Notes under the pieces: generated by a model | Seen by the model: only the letters and a program-made list of their open reading frames with translations | Databases searched by the model: none | Told to the model about the DNA's origin: nothing | Origin: an uncultured Acidobacteriota bacterium | GTDB lineage: Bacteria; Acidobacteriota; CAIWXX01 | Length of the DNA: 39,138 nt | Direction of reading: 5' to 3' | Assembly: GCA_903916735.1 (NCBI GenBank) | Contig: CAIWXX010000160.1 | Span: 1 to 39,138, forward strand | In this document: piece after piece, positions 13,823 to 25,626 of the stretch | Layout: each line of letters starts with the position of its first letter | How positions within the stretch are numbered: position 1 is the stretch's first letter | Translations under genes and position numbers: made by a program

Positions 13823-14344
13823 ATGAGTGATTGCAGGCATGAGTGGGCCATGTGCAATCTCCGATCCGGCTACCTCGTCGTTGAGGGATGTTGGGAGTGC
13901 GGTGGTCGTTCTTCGTTCTTCTCCGCTGAACCGGTTCCTCCGATCGATGAGTATCGCGAAGGCAGGCATTTCTGGATGTACAGGGGGAGCTTTCAGACTG
14001 TGAAGTTCGACTTGAAATGCCATGCCTGTGGTACGATCGTCAATCTCGATGATGTGAACGGGCTCATGCTCTCCGACTGCACCGATCACGACTGCCAGGT
14101 CGGAGCGCTGGTGAACCAGCAAGGCGCAGACACGCTGGTCTATGTCGCCTTGTGTGCGGACAGCACTCATGCTCAAGGGAAATGCGTGAGCAGCGCAGGG
14201 ATCGAGGCACTGAGCCAGTACTTCAATAAAAACATCGAAGCACTGGGCAGGAAAGTTCTCGTCGTCCCCTGCAAGTTGTGCAACAGCATCGATAAATGCA
14301 GAGGCACAGTCATTGCCGATGTCGGCTTGACGGATATTCAATAA
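13823..14344 (+). CDS. Cysteine-rich conserved-looking protein, first gene of the redox operon
   Basis: A 173-residue soluble protein preceded by a strong GGGAGGAG site ten bases before ATG. I do not recognise the family. It has many ordered cysteines: VEGCWECGG (CxxC), KCHACG (CxxC), SDCTDHDC, LCADSTHAQGKC, and VVPCKLCNSIDKC near the end. The regular CxxC pairs suggest two zinc ribbons or a small iron-sulfur site. The body is well folded in appearance (HFWMYRGSFQTVKFDL). Its place at the head of an operon for a multi-cluster oxidoreductase suggests assembly, sensing or regulation of that complex. This is inference from position only. Confidence 0.75.
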   Translation: MSDCRHEWAMCNLRSGYLVVEGCWECGGRSSFFSAEPVPPIDEYREGRHFWMYRGSFQTVKFDLKCHACGTIVNLDDVNGLMLSDCTDHDCQVGALVNQQGADTLVYVALCADSTHAQGKCVSSAGIEALSQYFNKNIEALGRKVLVVPCKLCNSIDKCRGTVIADVGLTDIQ

Positions 14345-14801: not shown

Positions 14802-15269
14802 ATGACGAACCAAGTGTTTTCCGATGTTGTCCGGGAGTTTAAAGGAGATCCGTCTGAGCTGATCCCCGTTCTCCAAAGGGTTCAGGCCGCCGACGGCTAT
14901 CTCTCGTCGGATTCTCTCACCCGAATTTCCCGCTGGCTGAGAATTTCCGAGAATGAGATCTATGGAGTTGCCACGTTTTTCGCTCAGTTTCGGTTCACGC
15001 AGCCGGGGGAGCATATCATCAAGGTATGCCTCGGCACGGCCTGTCACGTCAAAGGCGGCGAACAGATCCTTGAGGTATTGAAGCGCCGGCTGGATGTCCA
15101 GCCGGGCCGGGCCACTGCGGATGGGAAGTATCAACTCGAACGAGTTGCATGTCTCGGCTGTTGCGCCTTGGCGCCGGTCCTGTCGATCGACGAGAAGGTT
15201 TATGGCGAGACATCGGTCTTGAGAGTTCATCAGATGATTGAGGAGCGAGAAAATCGTGAGAACGCTTGA
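14802..15269 (+). CDS. NuoE/HydC-like [2Fe-2S] subunit
   Basis: A 155-residue thioredoxin-fold [2Fe-2S] protein of the 24-kDa subunit family of complex I and bifurcating hydrogenases. The N-terminal helical part (LIPVLQRVQAADGYLSSDSL) precedes the cluster motif KVCLGTACHVKG (CxxxxC) and VACLGCCALAP (CxxxC). It passes electrons to the NuoF-like partner encoded next, whose predicted GTG start lies inside this gene (14-base overlap), which implies translational coupling. Length is normal for the family. Confidence 0.93.
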   Translation: MTNQVFSDVVREFKGDPSELIPVLQRVQAADGYLSSDSLTRISRWLRISENEIYGVATFFAQFRFTQPGEHIIKVCLGTACHVKGGEQILEVLKRRLDVQPGRATADGKYQLERVACLGCCALAPVLSIDEKVYGETSVLRVHQMIEERENRENA

Positions 15270-17127
15270 AGCGCAAAGGAACCGTGCGATCCAGGCGTGG
15301 AACGAGCTTCAGAATAACGCTCGTCCATTGATCTACATCGGCGCCGCATCATGCGGCCTCGCCGCCGGGGCTGCGGAGGTTATCGACGCCATCAGGCGCT
15401 ATTTGGCGGAAAGGCGGAAAGAAGCCGACATTCTCAAGGTCGGATGCATCGGCCCTTGCTACCTCGAACCGCTCGTCGACATCCAGATGCCCGGCAATCC
15501 CCGAGTCAGCTATTCAAACATCACACCGGATCTGGTCAAGCAGCTCTTCAACTCTTTCTTCGAGAATGGAGAGGTGTTCAAACCTCATCTGGTCGGACAT
15601 TTCGGGCTGAATGGTTTCGCGGATGCGCCCAAGTTCTTCGAACATCCGATGCTCGCTCGCCAGGTTCGCATCGTCCTTCGTAATTGTGGAATCATCGATC
15701 CGGAGAAGATTGATCACTATCTGGCGCGAGATGGATACAAGGCTTTGGAAAAATGCCTCTCGATGCCCTGGTCGGACGTCCTTGAAATGGTTAAGGCCTC
15801 CGGGATCCGGGGCCGCGGGGGAGCCGGCTTTCCAACGTGGCGCAAGTGGCTCGTCTGCCGTGAGACGGCGAGCGACATGCGATATCTGATATGCAACGCC
15901 GATGAAGGAGATCCCGGCGCTTTCATGAATCGATCGCTCATCGAAGGCGATCCACACTCGGTTCTTGAAGGGATGCTCATCGCCGGCTATACGATCGGCG
16001 CCTGCAAGGGCATCATTTACATCCGCGCTGAATATCCGCTGGCGATCGAGCGTCTTAAATCGGCCATCTCCCAGATGCGCGAACTGGGGCTTCTGGGGCG
16101 GCAAATTCTCGGAAGCGATTTCGACTTCGACATCCACATCAAGGAAGGCGCCGGCGCCTTCGTGTGCGGCGAAGAGACGGCTCTCATTGCCAGCATCGAA
16201 GGCCGGAGAGGCATGCCTCGCACGCGACCTCCGTTTCCGGCAGTCTCCGGCCTTGCGGGGAAGCCCACTATCATCAACAACGTCGAGACACTCGGCACTC
16301 TTCCCAACATCATCCGAAACGGAGCTGACTGGTATTCCTCTTACGGCACTGAGACCTCCAAGGGGACGAAGACATTCAGTCTTGTCGGGAAGGTCCGCCG
16401 CACCGGTCTCATCGAAGTTCCGCTCGGGACAACCCTTCGCAACGTCATAGACGATGTCGGCGGCGGCTCGGCCAAAGGCTTCAAGGCCGTCCAGACCGGT
16501 GGGCCATCAGGGGGATGTCTGGGTGAGGAGTTTCTCGATTCACCGATTGATTATGAATCCTTGGCGGCGGCCGGCTCCATCATGGGATCCGGCGGCCTCA
16601 TCGTCCTCGATAAAAATACGTGCATCGTGGATACTGCCAAATACTTTCTGAACTTCACTCAAGCAGAATCCTGCGGCAAATGCGTACCATGCCGGGTTGG
16701 AACCAGGCACCTCGTCGATATTCTCGAGAAGATTTCCCATGGCCATGGCGAAATTTCGGACATCGCCAAGCTCGAGCGGCTGGCTGTCACGATCAAGGGA
16801 GGTGCTCTCTGTGGCCTCGGACAGACCGCTCCAAACCCGGTCCTCACCGCGCTCAAATATTTCCGCGGCGAATTCCTTGCGCACATCATCGATAAACGCT
16901 GCCCTGCCGCCGTGTGCCGCGATCTCGTCATTTATCGGATCATCAAAGATAAGTGCACGGGCTGCCAGAGATGTGTGAAGGTATGCCCAACCGGGGCCAT
17001 CACGGGTCCGAGATCCGAGGCCCATAATCTTGATCTGAGCAAATGCATCAAATGCCGGTCGTGCTACGAGATCTGCCGATTCGATGCAATAGCCGGCGAC
17101 GCCATCGTCATTGAATCGGGAGTTTGA
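15256..17127 (+). CDS. NuoF/HydB-like NADH-binding flavoprotein with extra ferredoxin domains
   Basis: A 623-residue soluble flavoprotein, the NAD(H)-oxidising subunit. Order of domains: N-terminal thioredoxin-like [2Fe-2S] part (ASCGLAAGA and VGCIGPCYLEP, three cysteines); FMN/NAD core (IRGRGGAGFPTWRKW, CNADEGDPGAFMNR, EGAGAFVCGEETALIASIEG); SLBB; the complex I-type [4Fe-4S] motif ESCGKCVPCRVG with GGALCGLGQ; and a C-terminal 2x[4Fe-4S] ferredoxin (KCTGCQRCVKVCP, KCIKCRSCYEICR). The extra ferredoxin tail is typical of bifurcating HydB/HndC-type enzymes and not of respiratory NuoF. Likely start is GTG 15256 with GAGGAG at 15240-15245. The next gene starts two bases after the stop. Confidence 0.93.
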   Translation: MRTLEAQRNRAIQAWNELQNNARPLIYIGAASCGLAAGAAEVIDAIRRYLAERRKEADILKVGCIGPCYLEPLVDIQMPGNPRVSYSNITPDLVKQLFNSFFENGEVFKPHLVGHFGLNGFADAPKFFEHPMLARQVRIVLRNCGIIDPEKIDHYLARDGYKALEKCLSMPWSDVLEMVKASGIRGRGGAGFPTWRKWLVCRETASDMRYLICNADEGDPGAFMNRSLIEGDPHSVLEGMLIAGYTIGACKGIIYIRAEYPLAIERLKSAISQMRELGLLGRQILGSDFDFDIHIKEGAGAFVCGEETALIASIEGRRGMPRTRPPFPAVSGLAGKPTIINNVETLGTLPNIIRNGADWYSSYGTETSKGTKTFSLVGKVRRTGLIEVPLGTTLRNVIDDVGGGSAKGFKAVQTGGPSGGCLGEEFLDSPIDYESLAAAGSIMGSGGLIVLDKNTCIVDTAKYFLNFTQAESCGKCVPCRVGTRHLVDILEKISHGHGEISDIAKLERLAVTIKGGALCGLGQTAPNPVLTALKYFRGEFLAHIIDKRCPAAVCRDLVIYRIIKDKCTGCQRCVKVCPTGAITGPRSEAHNLDLSKCIKCRSCYEICRFDAIAGDAIVIESGV

Positions 17128-17128
17128 C

Positions 17129-20100
17129 ATGACCTCAAATCCTGTTCGCGCCAAAGATGCCCGGACGATCTCAATCGAGATCGACCATCGCGCCGTCGGT
17201 TGCCCGGAAGGCCTCACGGTGCTGAGGGCCGCTGAGTTGAACGGGGTCTATGTTCCATCACTCTGTTCTCACAAAGATCTATCTCCCTTCGGTGGATGCC
17301 GCCTCTGTGTCGTGGAGATTGGTGGAATGCGCGGTTATCCACTGGCCTGCAGCACGATTGTTCAGGAAGGTATGAAGATACTGACTGAAACGACGGCGCT
17401 GCGAGAAATGAGGCGGGAGATACTGGAGCTGATTCTGAGTGAGCACCCGTCGAGCTGCCTCGTGTGCGGCGAGAAAGCCGCATGCCAGGGGAACGTGCAT
17501 ACGGTGCGAAAGTCCGGCGTCAGCACGGGATGCCGTTACTGCCCCAACGACGCGCAGTGCGAACTCCAGACACTCGTCGAAAAGTTGGGCGTGACCGAAA
17601 TTCATTACCCTGTGTACTACCGTGAATATGAGCCTGAACACGAGGACGCATTTTTTGATAGAGATTACAACATCTGCATCCTGTGCGGCCGCTGCGTTCG
17701 AATGTGCCAGGAAGTGCGCGGAACATCGGTGCTCGCCTTCAAGCACCGAGGCCCCAAGACACAGATCGGCCCGGCTTTCGGAAGGAACCATGTGGAGGCC
17801 GGATGCGAGTTTTGTGGCGCCTGTGTCTCTGTCTGCCCGACGGGCACACTCGCGGACAAGGCTTCGAAGTGGGATGGCCAGCCTGACGGATTCGAAGTCT
17901 CCACATGCCCCTTCTGCGCGCTGGGCTGTCAGATCGAGCTTCTTCATAAGGACGGACGTCTGTCGAAGGTTCATCCGCACTTGGACCCCGAGATCAATGA
18001 CGGGCAACTCTGCGTGCGCGGGCGATTCTGCCTCCCCGAAACCACTCATAATCACCAACGAGCTCGAAAGCCGGTGCTTAAGCGTGGTCAATATTTCCGT
18101 GATGTGAGTTGGCCGGAAGCGTTGGACGATGTTGCATCGCATCTCAAGGGTGTCAAGCCTGATGAGATCCTGATGGTCGTCTCGCCGGACCTCACCAACG
18201 AGAGCCTCTACAAGGCTCAGAAGTTCATCCGATCCGTTTTGAATTCAAACAGCATCGATTCCACTGCGCGCTGGGCTCTGCCCGGCGGGCCCGGCCTGTG
18301 GGCTGAGCTTTTTTCGCGGCCCATCTCGATCAAGAGCATCGCTCACGCCGATGCCATCATTGCGGTCGGTCTTGATTCGAGGTTCTCCTTCTCCGTGGCG
18401 GGGGTGGAAATCCGACGCGCCTTGAAAGAAGGCGCGACACTGGTGACCATTGATCCACGCGATTCCAATCTGGCTCGATACACCAAACATTGGTTGCGGC
18501 CTCGCCCGGGCGCTGAAGGGAATTTGCTCCGCGTCCTGGCTGAGAGCCTCCTCACTGGAAAACCAGTCTCACAGGGAGCCGTCGACAAGAGTGGCGTTGA
18601 TAAGAGTACAGTGGAAAGGGCCATCGAGGTTCTTGCTGCCGGCAAGGAGCTTGCCGTCATCGTGGGGCCCACTGCCTTTGCAGTCGATGCAAACCATGAG
18701 CTCGGCGACGCTCTTCTCAAGCTTGCAGAGCGGGAGAGGACGACGATCCTTCCCCTCTATCAGGGTACCAATACCAGAGGCGCACTCGAGCTCGGCGTTT
18801 TTGGGGAATTGCTCCCGGGGCTTGAAAGAGCCAAGGATCGCGGTGTATCGCTTGCTGATTTATTGGAGGGTCGGGCAAAGCCGAAAGTTCTTTTTCTTGT
18901 CGGGGAGTCTCCCTTCTTCGTACGTCCGGACTGCGACTACATCATCGCTCAGGACACCTACAAGCCGCCTTTCGAAGTGGATGCATTTCTGCCGGCTGCC
19001 AGTTTCGCGGAGAGCGATGGGACGCTCACCAACATCGAAGGCAGGATTCAGCGGGTCGTCAGAATCGAGAATTTGCCGGATGGCGCGAGCATGGGATTTG
19101 CGCGTCCCGATTGGTTCATTTTCGACGCGCTCGCTGAGAAACTTGGTCACGCCGAGCCTCCCTCCGAGAACGCGAGCCAGATCCTCAAAGAGATCAGCGA
19201 AAAAGTTGCAGGGTTCCCGGCAACCCCCGACCGTCAACCTCGAAAGCTCCAGCCCGCCTCACGCATCCCCTGGGACACGCCCCGCATGGCTTCTCATGAA
19301 ACCAATGGATTCCGCCTTATTCTCGAGCCTGGTGGATTTCGCCATCGCGGAATCGACATGAGATTCGTGGTCGAGGGGCTTTCGGAATTGGCGCTCGAAG
19401 AGGGCTTCCGCCTCCATCCCGCCGATCTGGAAGAGCTCGGCATCAAGAACGGCGAGATCGCCGTCCTGCGCGCTGACGGCGTGGAGGTTTTCGGCCCGGT
19501 CAAAGCCGATCCCGATTGCCCCGGCGGTTCAGTTTATGTTTATCGCCCTTTCGCTTATGGTGGCCTGCCCCACAGAAGCAACCTCGAACCGCTCTATCGC
19601 CTTGGTGAAAGCCTGCTCACGGCGACAATCGCTCCAGCGGGCTCGTCACAACCTCAGGGAATCACGCGGCCGGCATCCATGGGCGCCGGTGGAGAATCAG
19701 CGCCGCCTGACAGTTACAAAATTATTGAACGTCGCATGATCGTTCCGAATCTGCATGAGTTCATCGTGGAAGCGCCGCTGGTTACGATGGCAGTTCAACC
19801 GGGGAATTTTATTATTCTGCGACCCGATGTGACTGGGGAACGCGTGCCTTTGACGGTGGCCGATTGGAATCCTGATGCTGGAACAGTGACGTCAATTTTC
19901 CTTCAGGTCGGCGCATCGACAGCCAAGCTCGCACGCCTCAAGCCAGGCGACACAATTCCCACTTACGCCGGCCCGCTCGGCAGGGAAACTGAGATCGCCA
20001 ACTACGGGACTGTGCTCTGCATCGGAGGCTGCTATGGCATTGGAAGTATCTACCCGGTTGCTCGCGCTCTTCACAACGCCGGCAATACAGTCTATTCATT

Positions 20101-20545
20101 TCTCGAAGGGCGAAGCCGATATCTCCTCTACTGGCAGGATAAATTCAGGCTCGTTTCCACGAAGGTCTTCGAAATCACCCGGGACGGTTCGGCCGGTTAC
20201 AAAGGTCACATCTCTCGCCTCCCGGAAATTCTCACATTGGAGAAAATCAAGCCCGACCGCATCTTCGTCAACGGTTGCACATTCTTGATGATGAGGACAT
20301 CTGAAATAACACGCGAGCTCGGGATCAAGACGATCGTCAATATGAATCCGATCATGATCGATGGAACAGGAATGTGCGGGGTCTGCCGTTTGACGGTGGC
20401 CGGCAAAACAAAATTCGCCTGTGTCGACGGCCCTGACTTCGACGGCCACGAAGTCGACTGGGAAGAGTTCCTCAACCGGAGAAAGACATATAACCTCGAA
20501 GAGGTTCAGCCTTTACGCAGGAGCGGCTGTGCTTCGCATTACTGA
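17129..20545 (+). CDS. NuoG-NfnA (SudB) fusion: multi-cluster iron-sulfur and FAD/NAD(P) oxidoreductase
   Basis: 1138 residues. In order: plant-type [2Fe-2S] (cysteines about 46, 57, 60, 74); His-Cys [4Fe-4S] region (HPSSCLVCG and SGVSTGCRYCPNDAQC, about 106-144); 2x[4Fe-4S] (about 183-237); a Mo/W-bisMGD-type [4Fe-4S] domain (CPFCALGC, final Cys near 295); a molybdopterin-oxidoreductase-like domain to about 840; then, from about 860, a complete NfnA/SudB/PyrK-like FAD- and NAD(P)-binding module with a C-terminal [2Fe-2S] site (DGTGMCGVCR ... FACVDGPDFDG). The Mo-like domain has no Cys or Sec at the usual active-site position, only two Cys far apart, so like NuoG it is probably structural. 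RBS GGGAG lies at 17119. The fusion physically joins the NADH-side and the NADP/ferredoxin-side of two enzymes. NfnB follows 17 bases later. Confidence 0.9.
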   Translation: MTSNPVRAKDARTISIEIDHRAVGCPEGLTVLRAAELNGVYVPSLCSHKDLSPFGGCRLCVVEIGGMRGYPLACSTIVQEGMKILTETTALREMRREILELILSEHPSSCLVCGEKAACQGNVHTVRKSGVSTGCRYCPNDAQCELQTLVEKLGVTEIHYPVYYREYEPEHEDAFFDRDYNICILCGRCVRMCQEVRGTSVLAFKHRGPKTQIGPAFGRNHVEAGCEFCGACVSVCPTGTLADKASKWDGQPDGFEVSTCPFCALGCQIELLHKDGRLSKVHPHLDPEINDGQLCVRGRFCLPETTHNHQRARKPVLKRGQYFRDVSWPEALDDVASHLKGVKPDEILMVVSPDLTNESLYKAQKFIRSVLNSNSIDSTARWALPGGPGLWAELFSRPISIKSIAHADAIIAVGLDSRFSFSVAGVEIRRALKEGATLVTIDPRDSNLARYTKHWLRPRPGAEGNLLRVLAESLLTGKPVSQGAVDKSGVDKSTVERAIEVLAAGKELAVIVGPTAFAVDANHELGDALLKLAERERTTILPLYQGTNTRGALELGVFGELLPGLERAKDRGVSLADLLEGRAKPKVLFLVGESPFFVRPDCDYIIAQDTYKPPFEVDAFLPAASFAESDGTLTNIEGRIQRVVRIENLPDGASMGFARPDWFIFDALAEKLGHAEPPSENASQILKEISEKVAGFPATPDRQPRKLQPASRIPWDTPRMASHETNGFRLILEPGGFRHRGIDMRFVVEGLSELALEEGFRLHPADLEELGIKNGEIAVLRADGVEVFGPVKADPDCPGGSVYVYRPFAYGGLPHRSNLEPLYRLGESLLTATIAPAGSSQPQGITRPASMGAGGESAPPDSYKIIERRMIVPNLHEFIVEAPLVTMAVQPGNFIILRPDVTGERVPLTVADWNPDAGTVTSIFLQVGASTAKLARLKPGDTIPTYAGPLGRETEIANYGTVLCIGGCYGIGSIYPVARALHNAGNTVYSFLEGRSRYLLYWQDKFRLVSTKVFEITRDGSAGYKGHISRLPEILTLEKIKPDRIFVNGCTFLMMRTSEITRELGIKTIVNMNPIMIDGTGMCGVCRLTVAGKTKFACVDGPDFDGHEVDWEEFLNRRKTYNLEEVQPLRRSGCASHY

Positions 20546-20562
20546 GGCTGGGAGGAGAGGCC

Positions 20563-21957
20563 ATGCCGGCCAAGACCATCGATCCTAAGAAGCGGCCAAT
20601 GCCGAAACAGGAGCCCTTCGAGCGGGTCAGGAATTTTGATGAGGTGGCTCTTGGGTACACCCCCGAGCTGGCTCGCGAAGAAGCCTCTCGCTGTCTTGTT
20701 TGCAAGAATCCGCATTGCGTCGAGGGATGTCCTGTCGGCATCGACATCCCGGGTTTCATCAAACACATTGTCGATGGCGATTTCAGCGGGGGCATTAGAA
20801 AGATCAAAGAGAGAAACGCTCTGCCGGCGGTCTGCGGCCGGGTGTGCCCGCAAGAGGAACAGTGCGAGAAGGTATGCGTGCTCGGGAAGAAGCACGAGCC
20901 TGTTGCCATCGGGCGGCTCGAACGTTTCCTCGCCGATCGGGAAGCAGCCGGCGGATTGATCGAGAAGCCGGATATTGTATCGACAAACGGGCGGCGAATA
21001 GCCATCGTGGGCTCGGGACCCGCGGGAATAACCGTGGCGAGTGATCTGGTGTTGCTGGGGTACAGGGTGACAATGTTCGAAGCGCTCCATGAAGCAGGAG
21101 GCGTTCTCACATATGGCATCCCTGAATTCCGTCTGCCCAAGGCCATCGTGCGGCGCGAAGTGGAATACGTGAAGAGCCTTGGAGTGAAGCTCTATCTCGA
21201 TTACATCGTCGGCAAGACCAGGACGGTGAACGCTCTTCAAAATGAGTTCGACGGAATCTTCATCGGCGCCGGCGCGGGGTTGCCGTGGTTCATGGAAATT
21301 CCAGGCGAAAATCTGAACGGCGTTTACTCGGCTAACGAATATCTGACGCGCTGCAATCTGATGAAGGGATTTCTCTTCCCGGCCTACAACACGCCGCTCA
21401 AGCGAGCATCCCGTGTCGCCGTCTTCGGCGGCGGGAACGTGGCGATGGACGCGGCACGCACGGCACTGCGACTTGGCGCCGACGAAGTGCATATAGTCTA
21501 TCGACGCAGCCGGAGCGAGCTGCCGGCGCGATTGGAAGAGGTCGAGAATGCCGAAGAGGAAGGTGTAATCTTCGACTATCTCACCCTCCCCACCAGACTC
21601 ATCGGCAACGAGAGGGGATGGCTCACGGACATCGAGTGTTTGAGGATGGAGCTCGGCGAACCGGATGAGTCCGGGCGCCGCCGACCCATCGCGGTCAAGG
21701 GGTCCGAATTTCTCATGAAAGTGGACGCTGCTGTTTGTGCGATCGGAAACAGTCCGAACCCGCTCATTCCGATGACGACGCCGGGACTGACCATCGGCAA
21801 GAAGGGAAACATTGTCGCCGATGAAGCGACGGGCTTGACCTCCCGCGAGAAAATCTGGGCGGGAGGCGATGTGGTCACCGGCGCCGCCACCGTCATCAGC
21901 GCAATGGGAGCAGGCAGAAAAGCTGCCAGGTCCATTCATGAAACATTATCGAAATAA
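20563..21957 (+). CDS. NfnB / SudA / GltA-type NADPH-dependent FAD oxidoreductase subunit
   Basis: 464 residues, the normal length for NfnB, SudA and homotetrameric GltA. The N-terminal iron-sulfur domain carries RCLVCKNPHCVEGCPVGIDI and AVCGRVCPQEEQCEKVC. The FAD motif is VGSGPAGITVASDLVLLG with GGVLTYGIPEFRLPK. The NADPH motif is VAVFGGGNVAMDAARTALRLG. The FAD-closing part includes IWAGGDVVTGAATVISAMG. In NfnAB this subunit oxidises NADPH and bifurcates electrons to ferredoxin and, through NfnA, to NAD. Here the NfnA partner is fused to the preceding NuoG-like protein, so this is its obvious partner. Strong GGAGGAGAGG site. Confidence 0.93.
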   Translation: MPAKTIDPKKRPMPKQEPFERVRNFDEVALGYTPELAREEASRCLVCKNPHCVEGCPVGIDIPGFIKHIVDGDFSGGIRKIKERNALPAVCGRVCPQEEQCEKVCVLGKKHEPVAIGRLERFLADREAAGGLIEKPDIVSTNGRRIAIVGSGPAGITVASDLVLLGYRVTMFEALHEAGGVLTYGIPEFRLPKAIVRREVEYVKSLGVKLYLDYIVGKTRTVNALQNEFDGIFIGAGAGLPWFMEIPGENLNGVYSANEYLTRCNLMKGFLFPAYNTPLKRASRVAVFGGGNVAMDAARTALRLGADEVHIVYRRSRSELPARLEEVENAEEEGVIFDYLTLPTRLIGNERGWLTDIECLRMELGEPDESGRRRPIAVKGSEFLMKVDAAVCAIGNSPNPLIPMTTPGLTIGKKGNIVADEATGLTSREKIWAGGDVVTGAATVISAMGAGRKAARSIHETLSK

Positions 21958-22011
21958 ACAAGTGGGGCCGAATCTGCTGATGACTGGAGAGCCAATGATG
22001 GAGCTGTGGGT

Positions 22012-22356
22012 ATGAAATTGTCCGAAATCAAAGATCTTCTCAAATGTGAAGTGCTGGCTGGTGCCGACGCCCTCGAAACCGATATCGACACGGCCGTTGC
22101 TTCGGATGCGATGAGCGTTGTGCTCGCTTCGCCTTATCCCCGAGCCTTGTTGATCACCGGACTCACAAACATCCAGTCGGTACGGACGGCGCAGATATCC
22201 TTCATCTCATCCATCCTCTATGTGCGGGGCACGCGTCCTAACGATACCACTGTTCAGCTGGCGCGCGACAATAAAATGGTTCTGCTCGCGACAGATACCG
22301 GTATGTTCAACAGCTGCGGCCTTCTACATAATCGCGGTATCAAGGGCGTCATCTAA
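22012..22356 (+). CDS. DRTGG-domain protein (copy 2)
   Basis: A 114-residue stand-alone DRTGG domain: LLKCEVLAGADALETDIDTA, VASDAMSVVLASPYPRALLI, LYVRGTRPNDTTVQLARDN, ending in NSCGLLHNRGIKGVI. It is a paralogue of the 14394 gene, though closer to the DRTGG form in HPr-kinase-like neighbours. GGAG at 21999-22002 precedes ATG 22012. The next gene starts at GTG 22358, one base after this stop codon. The pair DRTGG plus RsbW-type ATPase is a typical small signalling set beside hydrogenase-like genes. Confidence 0.88.
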   Translation: MKLSEIKDLLKCEVLAGADALETDIDTAVASDAMSVVLASPYPRALLITGLTNIQSVRTAQISFISSILYVRGTRPNDTTVQLARDNKMVLLATDTGMFNSCGLLHNRGIKGVI

Positions 22357-22357
22357 A

Positions 22358-22795
22358 GTGACCGAGGAACTTCTCAGAAGAACTTTCGAATTGCGTGGAC
22401 GCGACTTCGAAAATGCGGGAGAGAAATCGACCGAGGTCACCTCGATTCTGAAGGAGCTCGATATCGATCCCGACGTCATCCTGCGCGTCGGCGTCGTCAC
22501 ATTCGAAGCGGAAATGAATGTTGTGATGTATGCGGATAAGGCGATATTGTCCTTCATCCTGACGGACGATGAAATCGCCATCGAGGTCGCCGACCAGGGA
22601 CCAGGGATTCCGAACATTGAATTGGCGATGCAGCCCGGCTACTCAACTGCCTCCGACGAAATGCGCGAAATGGGATTCGGATATGGCATGGGGCTCCCGA
22701 ACATCAAGAAGAACTCCGACGAGTTTTTCCTGGAATCTCAGGTAGGGAAAGGGACGAAAGTGTATTGCATGATCCGGCTGAACTCCAATGGCTGA
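22358..22795 (+). CDS. RsbW-type ATPase (anti-sigma factor/serine kinase-like, HATPase_c)
   Basis: 145 residues, a single GHKL-type ATPase domain. The N-box lies in VVTFEAEMNVVMYA (Glu and Asn present), the G1 box is VADQGPGIPN and the G2 box is MGFGYGMGLPN, so ATP binding is probably intact. Proteins of this size act as anti-sigma factors or Ser/Thr kinases on small partners. No STAS-domain antagonist or sigma factor is in the window, so the target is unknown. GTG start directly after the DRTGG stop. The last 8 bases overlap the start of the hydrogenase-like gene, which points to coupled expression. Confidence 0.88.
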   Translation: MTEELLRRTFELRGRDFENAGEKSTEVTSILKELDIDPDVILRVGVVTFEAEMNVVMYADKAILSFILTDDEIAIEVADQGPGIPNIELAMQPGYSTASDEMREMGFGYGMGLPNIKKNSDEFFLESQVGKGTKVYCMIRLNSNG

Positions 22796-24095
22796 GCTCA
22801 CTCACGGATTTAAAATCGACCGGGAAAAGTGCAAGGGGTGCCTTGCCTGCATGCGGGTCTGCCCGACTCACGCGATCCGGGTCAAAGACGGCAAGGCGCG
22901 TTATAAGCCCGATCATTGCATTGACTGTGGAGTTTGTCTCACGGCGTGCCCGTGGAACTCAATCGGCGCGACGACGTGGTCCGTCGAGGACCTCAGCCGG
23001 TTCAAGTTCAAAGTGGCTGTGCCGTGCCCCGTTCTGTTCGGGCAGTTTCCGACAGGGATCACGCCGGCCAACATCGTCGACGGGTTGCTCACGCTTGGGT
23101 TCGATGCTGTTTGGGATTATTCGGTTGAGATCGATCTGGTGGCGCGGGCGATTCAGGAGTATGTGGAGAAGTGGAAGGGAGCGACGCCGTTGATCTCCAT
23201 TTCGTGCCCTGTCGTAGTGCGACTGGTGCAGGTTTCCTATCCGCGGATGGCCGATCAGCTCATCCCCATCCAGCTTCCACGCGAAATCGCCGGCCGCGAA
23301 GTCAAGCGACGGTACTCCGCGGATCTCGGCTTGAATCGAGACGATATCGCGGCCATCTATATCACGCCTTGCCAGGCCAAGACGATTTCCATATTGCAGC
23401 CCGCGGAGGGAGCGGTGAGCCATCTGGACGGCACGCTGGGGATCACCGACGTTTACAACGCTGTCCTCGCTTATGCGAGTCTGCAGAAGGACGAAACAAG
23501 CAAGAGCGGTCATCGTCCGATCATCCGCAACTCGACATTTCTCCGGTTACATGCAAGTGAAGGGTTAGGGCACCTTCTGCCCGTGCATCGATATCTGCGC
23601 GTGACGGGACTAGCGAACACGATTCATGTCTTCAACGACATCGAGAAAGGGAAGCTACGGAATGTGGACTTCCTCGAGGCCTACAGCTGCTGGAGCGGAT
23701 GTTCGGGAGGCAATCTGACGGTCGCGAATGTGTATGTCACGCGGAGTAAATTCCACTCACTGGCTCGAAATCTGCCGGAAATGGATGCTGAAACTCAGAC
23801 GGAAGTCGAGAGGCGTTACTCGATCGAGGACTTTACACTCGATGCGCCCATTCGACCTCGCCCCATCAAAGGCCGGACGGCAGGGACCCTCAAGGAAAAA
23901 GTGCAAATGGTCCAGCTGGCAGAATCCACGCTGGCCGGCTTACCCGGGCTCAATTGCGGTCTCTGCGGAGCGCCGACGTGCAAGGAACTGGCACGGGATG
24001 TCAGCATCGGCGAAGCTGCCAAGCAGGACTGCATCCTCCTTTCCAAGAACCGCCTGCAGGAGCTTCAACGAACCTATCTGCGCGAAACGGAATAG
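22788..24095 (+). CDS. [FeFe]-hydrogenase-like protein (group C/D-type, putative H2/redox sensor)
   Basis: 435 residues. Two [4Fe-4S] motifs at the N-terminus (CKGCLACMRVCP, CIDCGVCLTACP) lead to the hydrogenase large-subunit C-terminal domain. All four expected ligands of the H-cluster cubane are present: Cys in SISCP (about 139), TPCQAK (about 195), and both Cys of SCWSGCSGG (about 300, 304). But the proton-transfer Cys of TSCCP is Ser here, the Met of MPC is Thr, and the acidic residue after the L2 lysine is missing. A further Fe-S motif NCGLCGAPTC lies near 390, as in sensory-type group C/D proteins. There is no PAS or GGDEF tail and no maturase (HydEFG) in the window. Sensing, not turnover, is the likelier role. 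Confidence 0.85.
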   Translation: MAELTHGFKIDREKCKGCLACMRVCPTHAIRVKDGKARYKPDHCIDCGVCLTACPWNSIGATTWSVEDLSRFKFKVAVPCPVLFGQFPTGITPANIVDGLLTLGFDAVWDYSVEIDLVARAIQEYVEKWKGATPLISISCPVVVRLVQVSYPRMADQLIPIQLPREIAGREVKRRYSADLGLNRDDIAAIYITPCQAKTISILQPAEGAVSHLDGTLGITDVYNAVLAYASLQKDETSKSGHRPIIRNSTFLRLHASEGLGHLLPVHRYLRVTGLANTIHVFNDIEKGKLRNVDFLEAYSCWSGCSGGNLTVANVYVTRSKFHSLARNLPEMDAETQTEVERRYSIEDFTLDAPIRPRPIKGRTAGTLKEKVQMVQLAESTLAGLPGLNCGLCGAPTCKELARDVSIGEAAKQDCILLSKNRLQELQRTYLRETE

Positions 24096-24465: not shown

Positions 24466-25626
24466 ATGATCGAACGACTCAAGGAACACGAAACCCTGCG
24501 ACGGCTCATTGCCAGGCACCCGGTTGTGGGTATCATCGGTGCGCGCCAGGTCGGCAAGACAACCTTGGCCCGCTCATTCGTCCGGACAACTCACGAGCCA
24601 TATTCTTTTTTTGATTTGGAGAATTCCGAGGACTTGGCGCGTCTCAGCGACCCTCTCTTTACGCTCAAGAAACTCAAGGGCCTTATTGTCATCGACGAAG
24701 TCCAACGGCTTCCGGGGATTTTTTCAGCGCTCCGCGTACTTGTTGATCGGCCCCGACCGTCTGCCCGTTTCCTGGTATTGGGAAGCGCCTCTCCAAAACT
24801 GCTTCGCCAAAGTTCGGAAACACTCGCCGGACGCATCTTCTATCATGAGGTCACCGGATTTGGGGTCGATGAAGTGGGAATAGGCAATCATGAGCGACTC
24901 TGGGTTCGCGGAGGGTTCCCCCGGTCCTATCTGGATCGGACTGCCGATGGAAGCCTGGAATGGCGGCAGGAATTCATCACCACGTTTCTGGAACGAGACC
25001 TCCCTCAACTGGGCATCGCCTTCCCGGCCATCACCATGCGCCGGTTCTGGAATATGCTCGCCCATTGCCACGGTCAAATCTGGAACTCATCCGAATTCGG
25101 CCGCGCTTTCGGTGTGGCCGACACCACTGTACGGAGATATCTCGATGCTCTGGTGGCCGCCATGGTCATTCGAACGCTTCAACCCTGGCACGAAAATATA
25201 ACCAAGCGTCAGGTCAAATCGCCGAAGATCTACCTGAGCGACAGTGGGCTTCTCCACGCACTGCTCAACATGACGACACTTCATGACCTGGAAGGGCACC
25301 CGAAAATCGGCGCTTCCTGGGAGGGATTTGTCATCAATCAGATCATTCGCCATCTTCGCATCCGTGCTGAAGAATGCTATTTCTGGGCTACTCATGCCGG
25401 TAGTGAGCTGGATCTCCTGGTGATCAGAGGAAATAGGAGGCTGGGGTTCGAGATCAAACGCAGCAGTTCGCCACAGCCGACTCCATCCATTCGTCATGCA
25501 ATGGCAGACTTGAAACTCAACCGACTGAACATCATTCATGCAGGGGACGAAACCTTCGAAATGACAAAAGGCGTGAGGGCCGTCGCATTTTGCAGATTGC
25601 TTGAAGATCTCGGCCCCATCCGCTGA
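24466..25626 (+). CDS. AAA ATPase with DUF4143 domain
   Basis: 386 residues in the common AAA_14 plus DUF4143 arrangement. Walker A is GARQVGKTT (about 26-34) and Walker B is LIVIDEVQRLPG. The RxxxLGSASPKLL part with the sensor region follows. The DUF4143 half begins around 170-200 (FLERDLPQLGIAFP, GVADTTVRRYLDALVAA) and ends in a small PD-(D/E)XK-like beta region with SELDLLVIRGNRRLGFEIKR. Such proteins are widespread in accessory regions and are often linked to mobile or toxin-antitoxin-like contexts; their function is not known. The gene is flanked by two decayed genes, so it may be a recent insertion. Confidence 0.9.
   Translation: MIERLKEHETLRRLIARHPVVGIIGARQVGKTTLARSFVRTTHEPYSFFDLENSEDLARLSDPLFTLKKLKGLIVIDEVQRLPGIFSALRVLVDRPRPSARFLVLGSASPKLLRQSSETLAGRIFYHEVTGFGVDEVGIGNHERLWVRGGFPRSYLDRTADGSLEWRQEFITTFLERDLPQLGIAFPAITMRRFWNMLAHCHGQIWNSSEFGRAFGVADTTVRRYLDALVAAMVIRTLQPWHENITKRQVKSPKIYLSDSGLLHALLNMTTLHDLEGHPKIGASWEGFVINQIIRHLRIRAEECYFWATHAGSELDLLVIRGNRRLGFEIKRSSSPQPTPSIRHAMADLKLNRLNIIHAGDETFEMTKGVRAVAFCRLLEDLGPIR

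Follow-up and report, generated by a model that had tools for sequence, protein, structure and literature searches.

Organization of the locus

The DNA analyzed here (the window) is a stretch of 39,138 nucleotides, contig CAIWXX010000160.1 of GenBank assembly GCA_903916735.1, from an uncultured Acidobacteriota bacterium. Its positions 14802-21957 carry an operon of nuoE-, nuoF-, nuoG-, nfnA- and nfnB-like genes, two of which, nuoG and nfnA, are fused in frame, and which probably encodes a soluble, ferredoxin-dependent NAD/NADP transhydrogenase with an NfnA module rewritten at its NAD-binding motifs. The features of the operon are as follows, with molybdenum abbreviated as Mo and counts referring to homologues from related loci.

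14802-15269, + strand: NuoE/BfuC/StnA-like thioredoxin-like [2Fe-2S] protein, 155 amino acids (Pfam 2Fe-2S_thioredx, E 1.8e-43)
15238-17127, + strand: NuoF/BfuB/StnB-like subunit, 629 amino acids
17129-20545, + strand: NuoG-NfnA fusion protein, 1138 amino acids (open frame and domain matches)
17129-19699, + strand: NuoG-like part, residues 1-857, with a Mo-like domain lacking the active-site Cys/Sec
17444-17560, + strand: doubled Cys motif H106 C110 C113 C119 ... C135 C138 C144, invariant in 36/36
17906-18013, + strand: Mo-type [4Fe-4S] ligands C260 C263 C267 C295, kept in 36/36 despite the lost Mo active site
19700-19714, + strand: fusion junction, where the NuoG stop TGA of relatives reads GCG (19700-19702) and their NfnA ATG reads AGT (19712-19714) in an ungapped DNA alignment
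19715-20542, + strand: NfnA-like part, residues 863-1138, with FAD motif RVPLT and [2Fe-2S] ligands D1078/C1083/C1086/C1098
20024-20038, + strand: GGCYG (C968) in place of the GGGxG NAD-binding loop; Cys in 34/34 operon NfnA, Gly in 13/13 standalone NfnA
20180-20182, + strand: R1018 in place of Asp; 34/34 operon NfnA, with Asp in 13/13 standalone NfnA
20273-20281, + strand: GCT (C1050) in place of GP, on the nicotinamide side of the NAD pocket; Cys in 34/34 operon NfnA, Pro in 13/13 standalone NfnA
20563-21957, + strand: NfnB/GltD-like subunit for NADP(H) and FAD that also has two [4Fe-4S] clusters (4ylf_B, E 8.6e-169)

A genuine, lineage-specific fusion of NuoG and NfnA

The 1138-residue frame translates without a stop, and matches to Pfam and NCBIfam place Fer2_4, NADH-G_4Fe-4S_3, Fer4_Nqo3, Molybdop_Fe4S4, Molybdopterin and Molydop_binding domains between residue 12 and about residue 810, followed by the NfnA/SudB family PRK06222 over residues 863-1131 (E 1.6e-95), where the solved NfnA chains 5jca_S and 4ylf_A also match. 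A complete NuoG-type chain thus runs on into an NfnA module with its own [2Fe-2S] center, as the original prediction, made from the sequence alone, had described. That prediction had also named a frame error at about 19640-19710 as the finding that would separate the two genes, and none is apparent. The junction aligns without gaps to the DNA of the closest homologues, from an Acidobacteria metagenome-assembled genome (MAG) and a Thermoanaerobaculaceae MAG (loci L009 and L012), in which NuoG and NfnA share one reading frame and a single TGA ends NuoG, followed after nine more bases by the ATG of NfnA. An insertion or deletion error was rejected because the alignment is ungapped, and a fusion produced by error would need substitutions at both the stop and the start codon. 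Differences from L012 amount to 11% and 4% at second codon positions in the two halves and to 46-49% at third positions, and purifying selection acts on both halves. Although the fusion rests on a single draft assembly and is shared by no close relative, these observations confirm it as genuine and make an assembly or frame error uniting two genes highly improbable; the conclusions drawn below for the operon would stand even if it were one.

Since NuoG and NfnA are encoded by two genes in all 37 other operon loci examined, the fusion is lineage-specific, private to the host genome, and is not a defining trait of the system. Open-frame lengths of 1142 (genome G110) and 1291 (G319) had suggested that it is widespread among relatives, but stop-to-stop frames show an intervening stop, and in a further genome (G145) NuoG and NfnA likewise abut as two genes. 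The two genes lie no more than 20 nucleotides apart in 34 of the 37 loci and overlap in 25, and two of the three larger gaps belong to loci with a broken NuoG frame. The fusion adds Rosetta-stone evidence that NuoG and NfnA would be in physical contact, but the proposal that it is itself what fixes the geometry of electron transfer is not supported, because the 37 related operons have two polypeptides. The related statement that these subunits are separate proteins in known systems is correct as far as NuoG and NfnA go; a fusion of NuoG with an NfnB-like domain, however, already exists in Stn.

A predicted bifurcating NuoE-NuoF core and a NuoG without a substrate site

Five Cys of the operon NuoE, cluster ligands among them, are invariant in the eight sequences compared. 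NuoF has an N-terminal [2Fe-2S] cluster, an FMN/NADH site, an N3-type [4Fe-4S] cluster, a His-containing B2 site and a C-terminal 2x[4Fe-4S] ferredoxin site, and among solved structures it is closest to B chains from enzymes of the Stn type and from Nfn-Bfu (9bov_B, 8oh5_B (StnB), 9n5u_B and 7t2r_B). The B1 ligands C479/482/485/525, the eight Cys of B3/B4 and the B2 set C462/H549/C555/C560 are kept in 35/35 operon NuoF, with the fourth, Cys/Thr position of B2 being S500 in the window and variable among operon NuoF. The B2 His is found in virtually all BfuB and is missing from non-bifurcating homologues (PMC9304861). The B5 ligands C39, C70 and C74 are present in the window and in 7/8, 8/8 and 9/9 of the sequences that reach that far; C150 is less conserved, and many loci are truncated at this end. 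B1/B3/B4, the B2 His, B5 and an adjoining BfuC [2Fe-2S] subunit, the marks of the Bfu family, were all found, and NuoE and NuoF carry the cluster ligands of a predicted electron-bifurcating BfuBC core.

In NuoG, 23 Fe-S ligands are invariant in 36/36 homologues, comprising all the usual ligands and three extra Cys; ordinary NuoG has a single H-C-C-C motif where the window type has the doubled one. The position of the Mo-ligating Cys/Sec of formate dehydrogenase (FDH) is Ala in the window and is not conserved across the homologues, in agreement with the original prediction, so that formate or other Mo chemistry in NuoG was rejected. The Mo-like domain stands where [FeFe]-hydrogenase HydABC has an H-cluster domain, which is absent here (Pfam), and the 36-homologue comparison leaves NuoG with no substrate site of its own. 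The host's own StnC aligns to residues 14-111 and 144-674 of the window NuoG, and StnC residues 103-593, inserted between these segments, form a roughly 490-residue NfnB-like (GltD) domain. As this insertion falls exactly at the doubled Cys motif, we infer by analogy that NfnB docks at the H106-C144 segment.

A canonical NfnB and an NfnA with rewritten NAD motifs

NfnB has the expected FAD and NADPH sites, two [4Fe-4S] cluster motifs, Glu120 and the Arg of PEFRLPK. The Lys that ligates the FAD-proximal cluster in Stn (K170) is replaced by Glu120 in the window and by Glu in the operon NfnBs; the two rows of the alignment that have Lys are GltD-like proteins of other types, and one of these two, L052, stems from a neighboring gene. 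Glu versus Lys cannot alone prove bifurcation, because Glu is common to operon and standalone NfnB.

The NfnA part keeps the FAD motif and the Asp/3Cys [2Fe-2S] ligands and lacks the NAD-binding GGGxG and GP motifs. Across the 34 operon copies the loop is of the GGC[YF]G type, with the FAD and [2Fe-2S] ligands kept, and the 13 standalone NfnA, the host's own copy included, have canonical NAD motifs throughout. The 34 operon NfnA form one clade (support 100/99) in a tree calculated without the Cys columns. Modeled alone, the window NfnA (predicted local distance difference test (pLDDT) 61, predicted template modeling score (pTM) 0.67) superposes on 5jca_S with Z 22.3 and a root-mean-square deviation of 3.1 over 247 residues, a modest model according to which it would fold like NfnA; in the predicted models, C968 and C1050 each fall within the nucleotide domain where a strand turns into a helix.

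In ferredoxin-reductase-like folds the GGGxG and GP loops enclose the pyrophosphate and the nicotinamide of NAD. Because both loops are rewritten in 34/34 operon NfnA, NAD(H) use at NfnA has probably been lost or changed and, for the same reason, NuoF is probably the sole site at which NAD(H) reacts. A new role may have fallen to the flavin of NfnA. The same rewriting speaks against the proposed route, in which electrons leave NuoF, cross NuoG, reach the flavin of NfnA and continue to NfnB, and the Stn analogy favors another route.

Distribution of the operon

The gene order nuoE-nuoF-nuoG-nfnA-nfnB is conserved in Acidobacteriota (including Aminicenantes), Actinomycetota and Planctomycetota (Phycisphaerae). 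Matches to the fusion protein (E 1e-85) were obtained in 31 of 396 sampled genomes of the window's phylum, about 8%, and were rare in the other two phyla (2/294 and 5/296). At five of these latter matches, in Planctomycetota and Actinomycetota (L076, L078-L081), NuoF-NuoG pairs with a NuoG of 29-34% identity have no NfnA within the fetched stretch.

The host RpoB is 59-61% identical to those of Acidobacteria and Aminicenantes versus 48% to that of a Planctomycete. NuoF, NuoG, NfnA and NfnB are 76-88% identical to their counterparts at L009/L012, and 66-84% identical to those of Phycisphaerae. The grouping of the host by RpoB with Acidobacteria and Aminicenantes, taken with these identities of its operon proteins, suggests horizontal transfer of the operon.

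A proposed NuoE-NuoF-(NuoG-NfnA)-NfnB complex and its alternatives

From these sequences, their conservation, the operon structure and the NfnA clade we infer complex formation, an electron path, a reaction and its direction. The reading that we favor, and consider probable, is that positions 14802-21957 encode one soluble NuoE-NuoF-(NuoG-NfnA)-NfnB complex, a Bfu (HydABC-like) ferredoxin-dependent NAD/NADP transhydrogenase in which the whole of NfnAB serves as the NADP(H) module. NADP(H) would react at the NfnB FAD, as its motifs indicate, and electrons would pass, by analogy with Stn, through the two NfnB [4Fe-4S] clusters to the NuoG clusters and the NuoF FMN, probably entering the NuoG chain at its additional stretch of Cys, near residues 106-144. 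Because its cluster ligands are completely conserved, the NuoE/NuoF core would split or merge electrons between NAD(H) and ferredoxin, the overall reaction being a reversible coupling of NADPH, NAD+ and ferredoxin. The Mo-like domain of NuoG would be structural, with neither formate nor H2 involved. NfnA, whose NAD motifs contain an aromatic residue and a pair of invariant Cys while its FAD and [2Fe-2S] sites are kept, would no longer use NAD(H) in the usual way; for NfnB it may be a side branch with tuned flavin and [2Fe-2S] centers or a docking part, and it would hold NfnB on NuoG. The gene order across phyla, the tight or overlapping NuoG-NfnA arrangement, the in-frame fusion, the NuoF bifurcation ligands, the closeness of NuoF to StnB and Nfn-Bfu B chains, a NuoG with no other substrate site, the canonical NfnB, the single NfnA clade with C968/C1050 in 34/34 against 0/13 standalone copies and the place of the StnC insertion support this reading, and with it the earlier suggestion of a complex linking NAD, NADP and ferredoxin.

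Other observations weigh on the other side. The host genome already holds a Stn-type operon, a standalone NfnAB and a HydA/FDH cluster, beside which one more enzyme catalyzing that reaction would seem superfluous if its role did not differ. The strictly kept flavin and [2Fe-2S] sites of NfnA, together with two new Cys, suggest more than docking. The AlphaFold model of the fusion, built from an alignment of 18 rows from the loci, is poor (pLDDT 55, pTM 0.45) and too weak for cluster distances.

The kept cofactor sites and new Cys lead to an alternative that we regard as unlikely, a four-substrate enzyme in which the NfnA flavin and C968/C1050 form a new catalytic site for a disulfide, a persulfide or another thiol-type acceptor. 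It accounts for the two invariant Cys and R1018 at an NAD pocket whose FAD and [2Fe-2S] ligands are kept in 34/34 copies, for the position of both Cys at strand-to-helix turns in the models and for the retention of Glu120 and the Arg in NfnB, the FAD of which could still bifurcate, sending one electron to the NfnA site and one to NuoG/NuoF and so giving two bifurcation centers in series; double centers have been suggested for Bam-Bfu (PMC9304861) and for sub-type I BfuB (PMC11406978). The operon, however, contains no substrate gene, and the Cys could be structural or metal-binding. In its full form the scheme would have NADP(H) react at NfnB and both NAD(H) and ferredoxin at NuoF/NuoE, the Cys-pair/flavin site of NfnA would take a sulfur compound, disulfide or thiol, and two bifurcation centers would be coupled within a single complex; we hold this to be rather unlikely.

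It is improbable that the operon encodes two independent enzymes, a BfuABC with a third substrate of its own and an NfnAB. NfnAB does work by itself in other organisms (PMC6405883); against this stand the NuoG-NfnA fusion, the gene overlaps in 25/37 loci, a separate clade of operon NfnA with rewritten NAD motifs and a NuoG without its own substrate site. A plain bifurcating Nfn module that has kept the reaction of NADH at NfnA, with NuoEFG as an additional way in for NADH, a scheme near that first proposed, would fit the kept NfnA fold and cofactor sites, but is quite improbable given that GGGxG and GP are missing from 34/34 operon NfnA and present in all standalone copies.

Comparison with known systems

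We read the transhydrogenase proposed for the window as related to Stn but, to judge from its sequences, built differently. Stn (StnABC; PMC7483475, PMC10482914) shares the BfuBC-type StnAB core, a NuoG with an inactive FdhF-like domain, an NfnB/GltD-like NADP(H) module, and NAD, NADP and ferredoxin as substrates; its FdhF-like domain is inactive yet required for assembly (PMC10482914). StnC, however, is a NuoG with an inserted NfnB-like domain, with Lys at the proximal cluster and no NfnA, whereas the window encodes NfnB in a gene of its own, with Glu at that cluster, and has an NfnA, joined to a NuoG that lacks the insertion. The Nfn-Bfu of Thermococcus sibiricus (Bfu Type 1, clade 53; PMC9304861) is also NADP-linked, with a related BfuB (9n5u_B ranks within the three best solved matches), but has its NfnB-like domain inside BfuA, lacks the A4 cluster ligands and has no NfnA subunit described. 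NfnAB of Thermotoga maritima and Pyrococcus furiosus shares the canonical NfnB and the NfnA fold, FAD and Asp/3Cys [2Fe-2S]; the window NfnA differs in its rewritten NAD motifs with two Cys and its operon linkage to NuoEFG. NiFe-HydABCSL and FeFe-HydABC (PMC8880783, PMC9499530) share the ABC core, but the window NuoG has no H-cluster and there are no NiFe subunits. The best solved match of the NuoG part is the NAD-dependent FDH (6tg9), from which it differs in lacking the Cys/Sec active site. In the literature searched we found no account of a NuoEFG-NfnAB complex or of a Cys-motif NfnA, and Acidobacteria go unmentioned in the main text of PMC9304861.

Bfu/Stn and NfnAB are two known solutions for ferredoxin-dependent transhydrogenation, here joined in one operon with one module predicted to be rewired, and the NfnA Cys pair offers a concrete test of how a docked bifurcating flavoprotein may lose or swap a substrate. 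For annotation, the NuoEFG-, PyrK/SudB- and GltD-looking genes in about 8% of sampled genomes of the phylum are probably one central redox-balance enzyme.

Host metabolism and flanking genes

The host bacterium is an anaerobe. Elsewhere its genome encodes the Stn-type operon (contig C62), standalone NfnAB (C55) and PFOR (C57); ferredoxin chemistry is well represented, and therefore the operon should have a role that the others lack. The Stn-type operon is complete (L064, G000:C62:8000-22000) and consists of a 581-aa sensor hydrogenase-like protein, HATPase, NuoE, NuoF and a 1252-aa StnC. Another contig (G000:C70; L065/L066) carries NuoE, NuoF, NfnB-like, HydA-like and FDH-type genes, with HydG at C70:6523, and this set is probably an NADP-linked hydrogenase/formate dehydrogenase system. 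The claim that no H2 or formate chemistry is involved thus holds for the NuoG of this operon, but does not extend beyond the operon, given HydG and the HydA-like/FDH cluster elsewhere and a degenerate sensor [FeFe]-hydrogenase gene downstream. The genes flanking the operon are as follows.

13823-14344, + strand: Cys-rich protein, 173 amino acids with 13 Cys, no Pfam family; conserved neighbor at L009, L012, L017, L038 and L039
14370-14723, + strand: DRTGG-domain protein, conserved upstream neighbor (Pfam and locus comparison)
22006-22356, + strand: small conserved neighbor, DRTGG-like by eye, the window copy having no Pfam match
22220-22795, + strand: HATPase (anti-sigma/histidine-kinase-like), conserved neighbor (Pfam HATPase_c, E 3e-8); true start probably further downstream
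22788-24095, + strand: sensor-type [FeFe]-hydrogenase-like protein, its H-cluster motifs degenerate (Fe_hyd_lg_C, E 2.3e-24; SISCPV, TPCQAK, CWSGC)

The L1 motif of the sensor-type protein (SISCPV) has a single Cys. This protein and the HATPase and DRTGG genes, which flank several loci and were not found at Actinomycetota loci, may together control the operon in response to H2 or to redox state. The host's Stn-type operon, too, is preceded by a HATPase and a similar sensor. In loci of Acidobacteria and Aminicenantes the Cys-rich protein is kept on the upstream side. A Walker-A protein (GARQVGKTT, 24466-25626), which follows the operon directly downstream, looks like an unrelated AAA-type neighbor.

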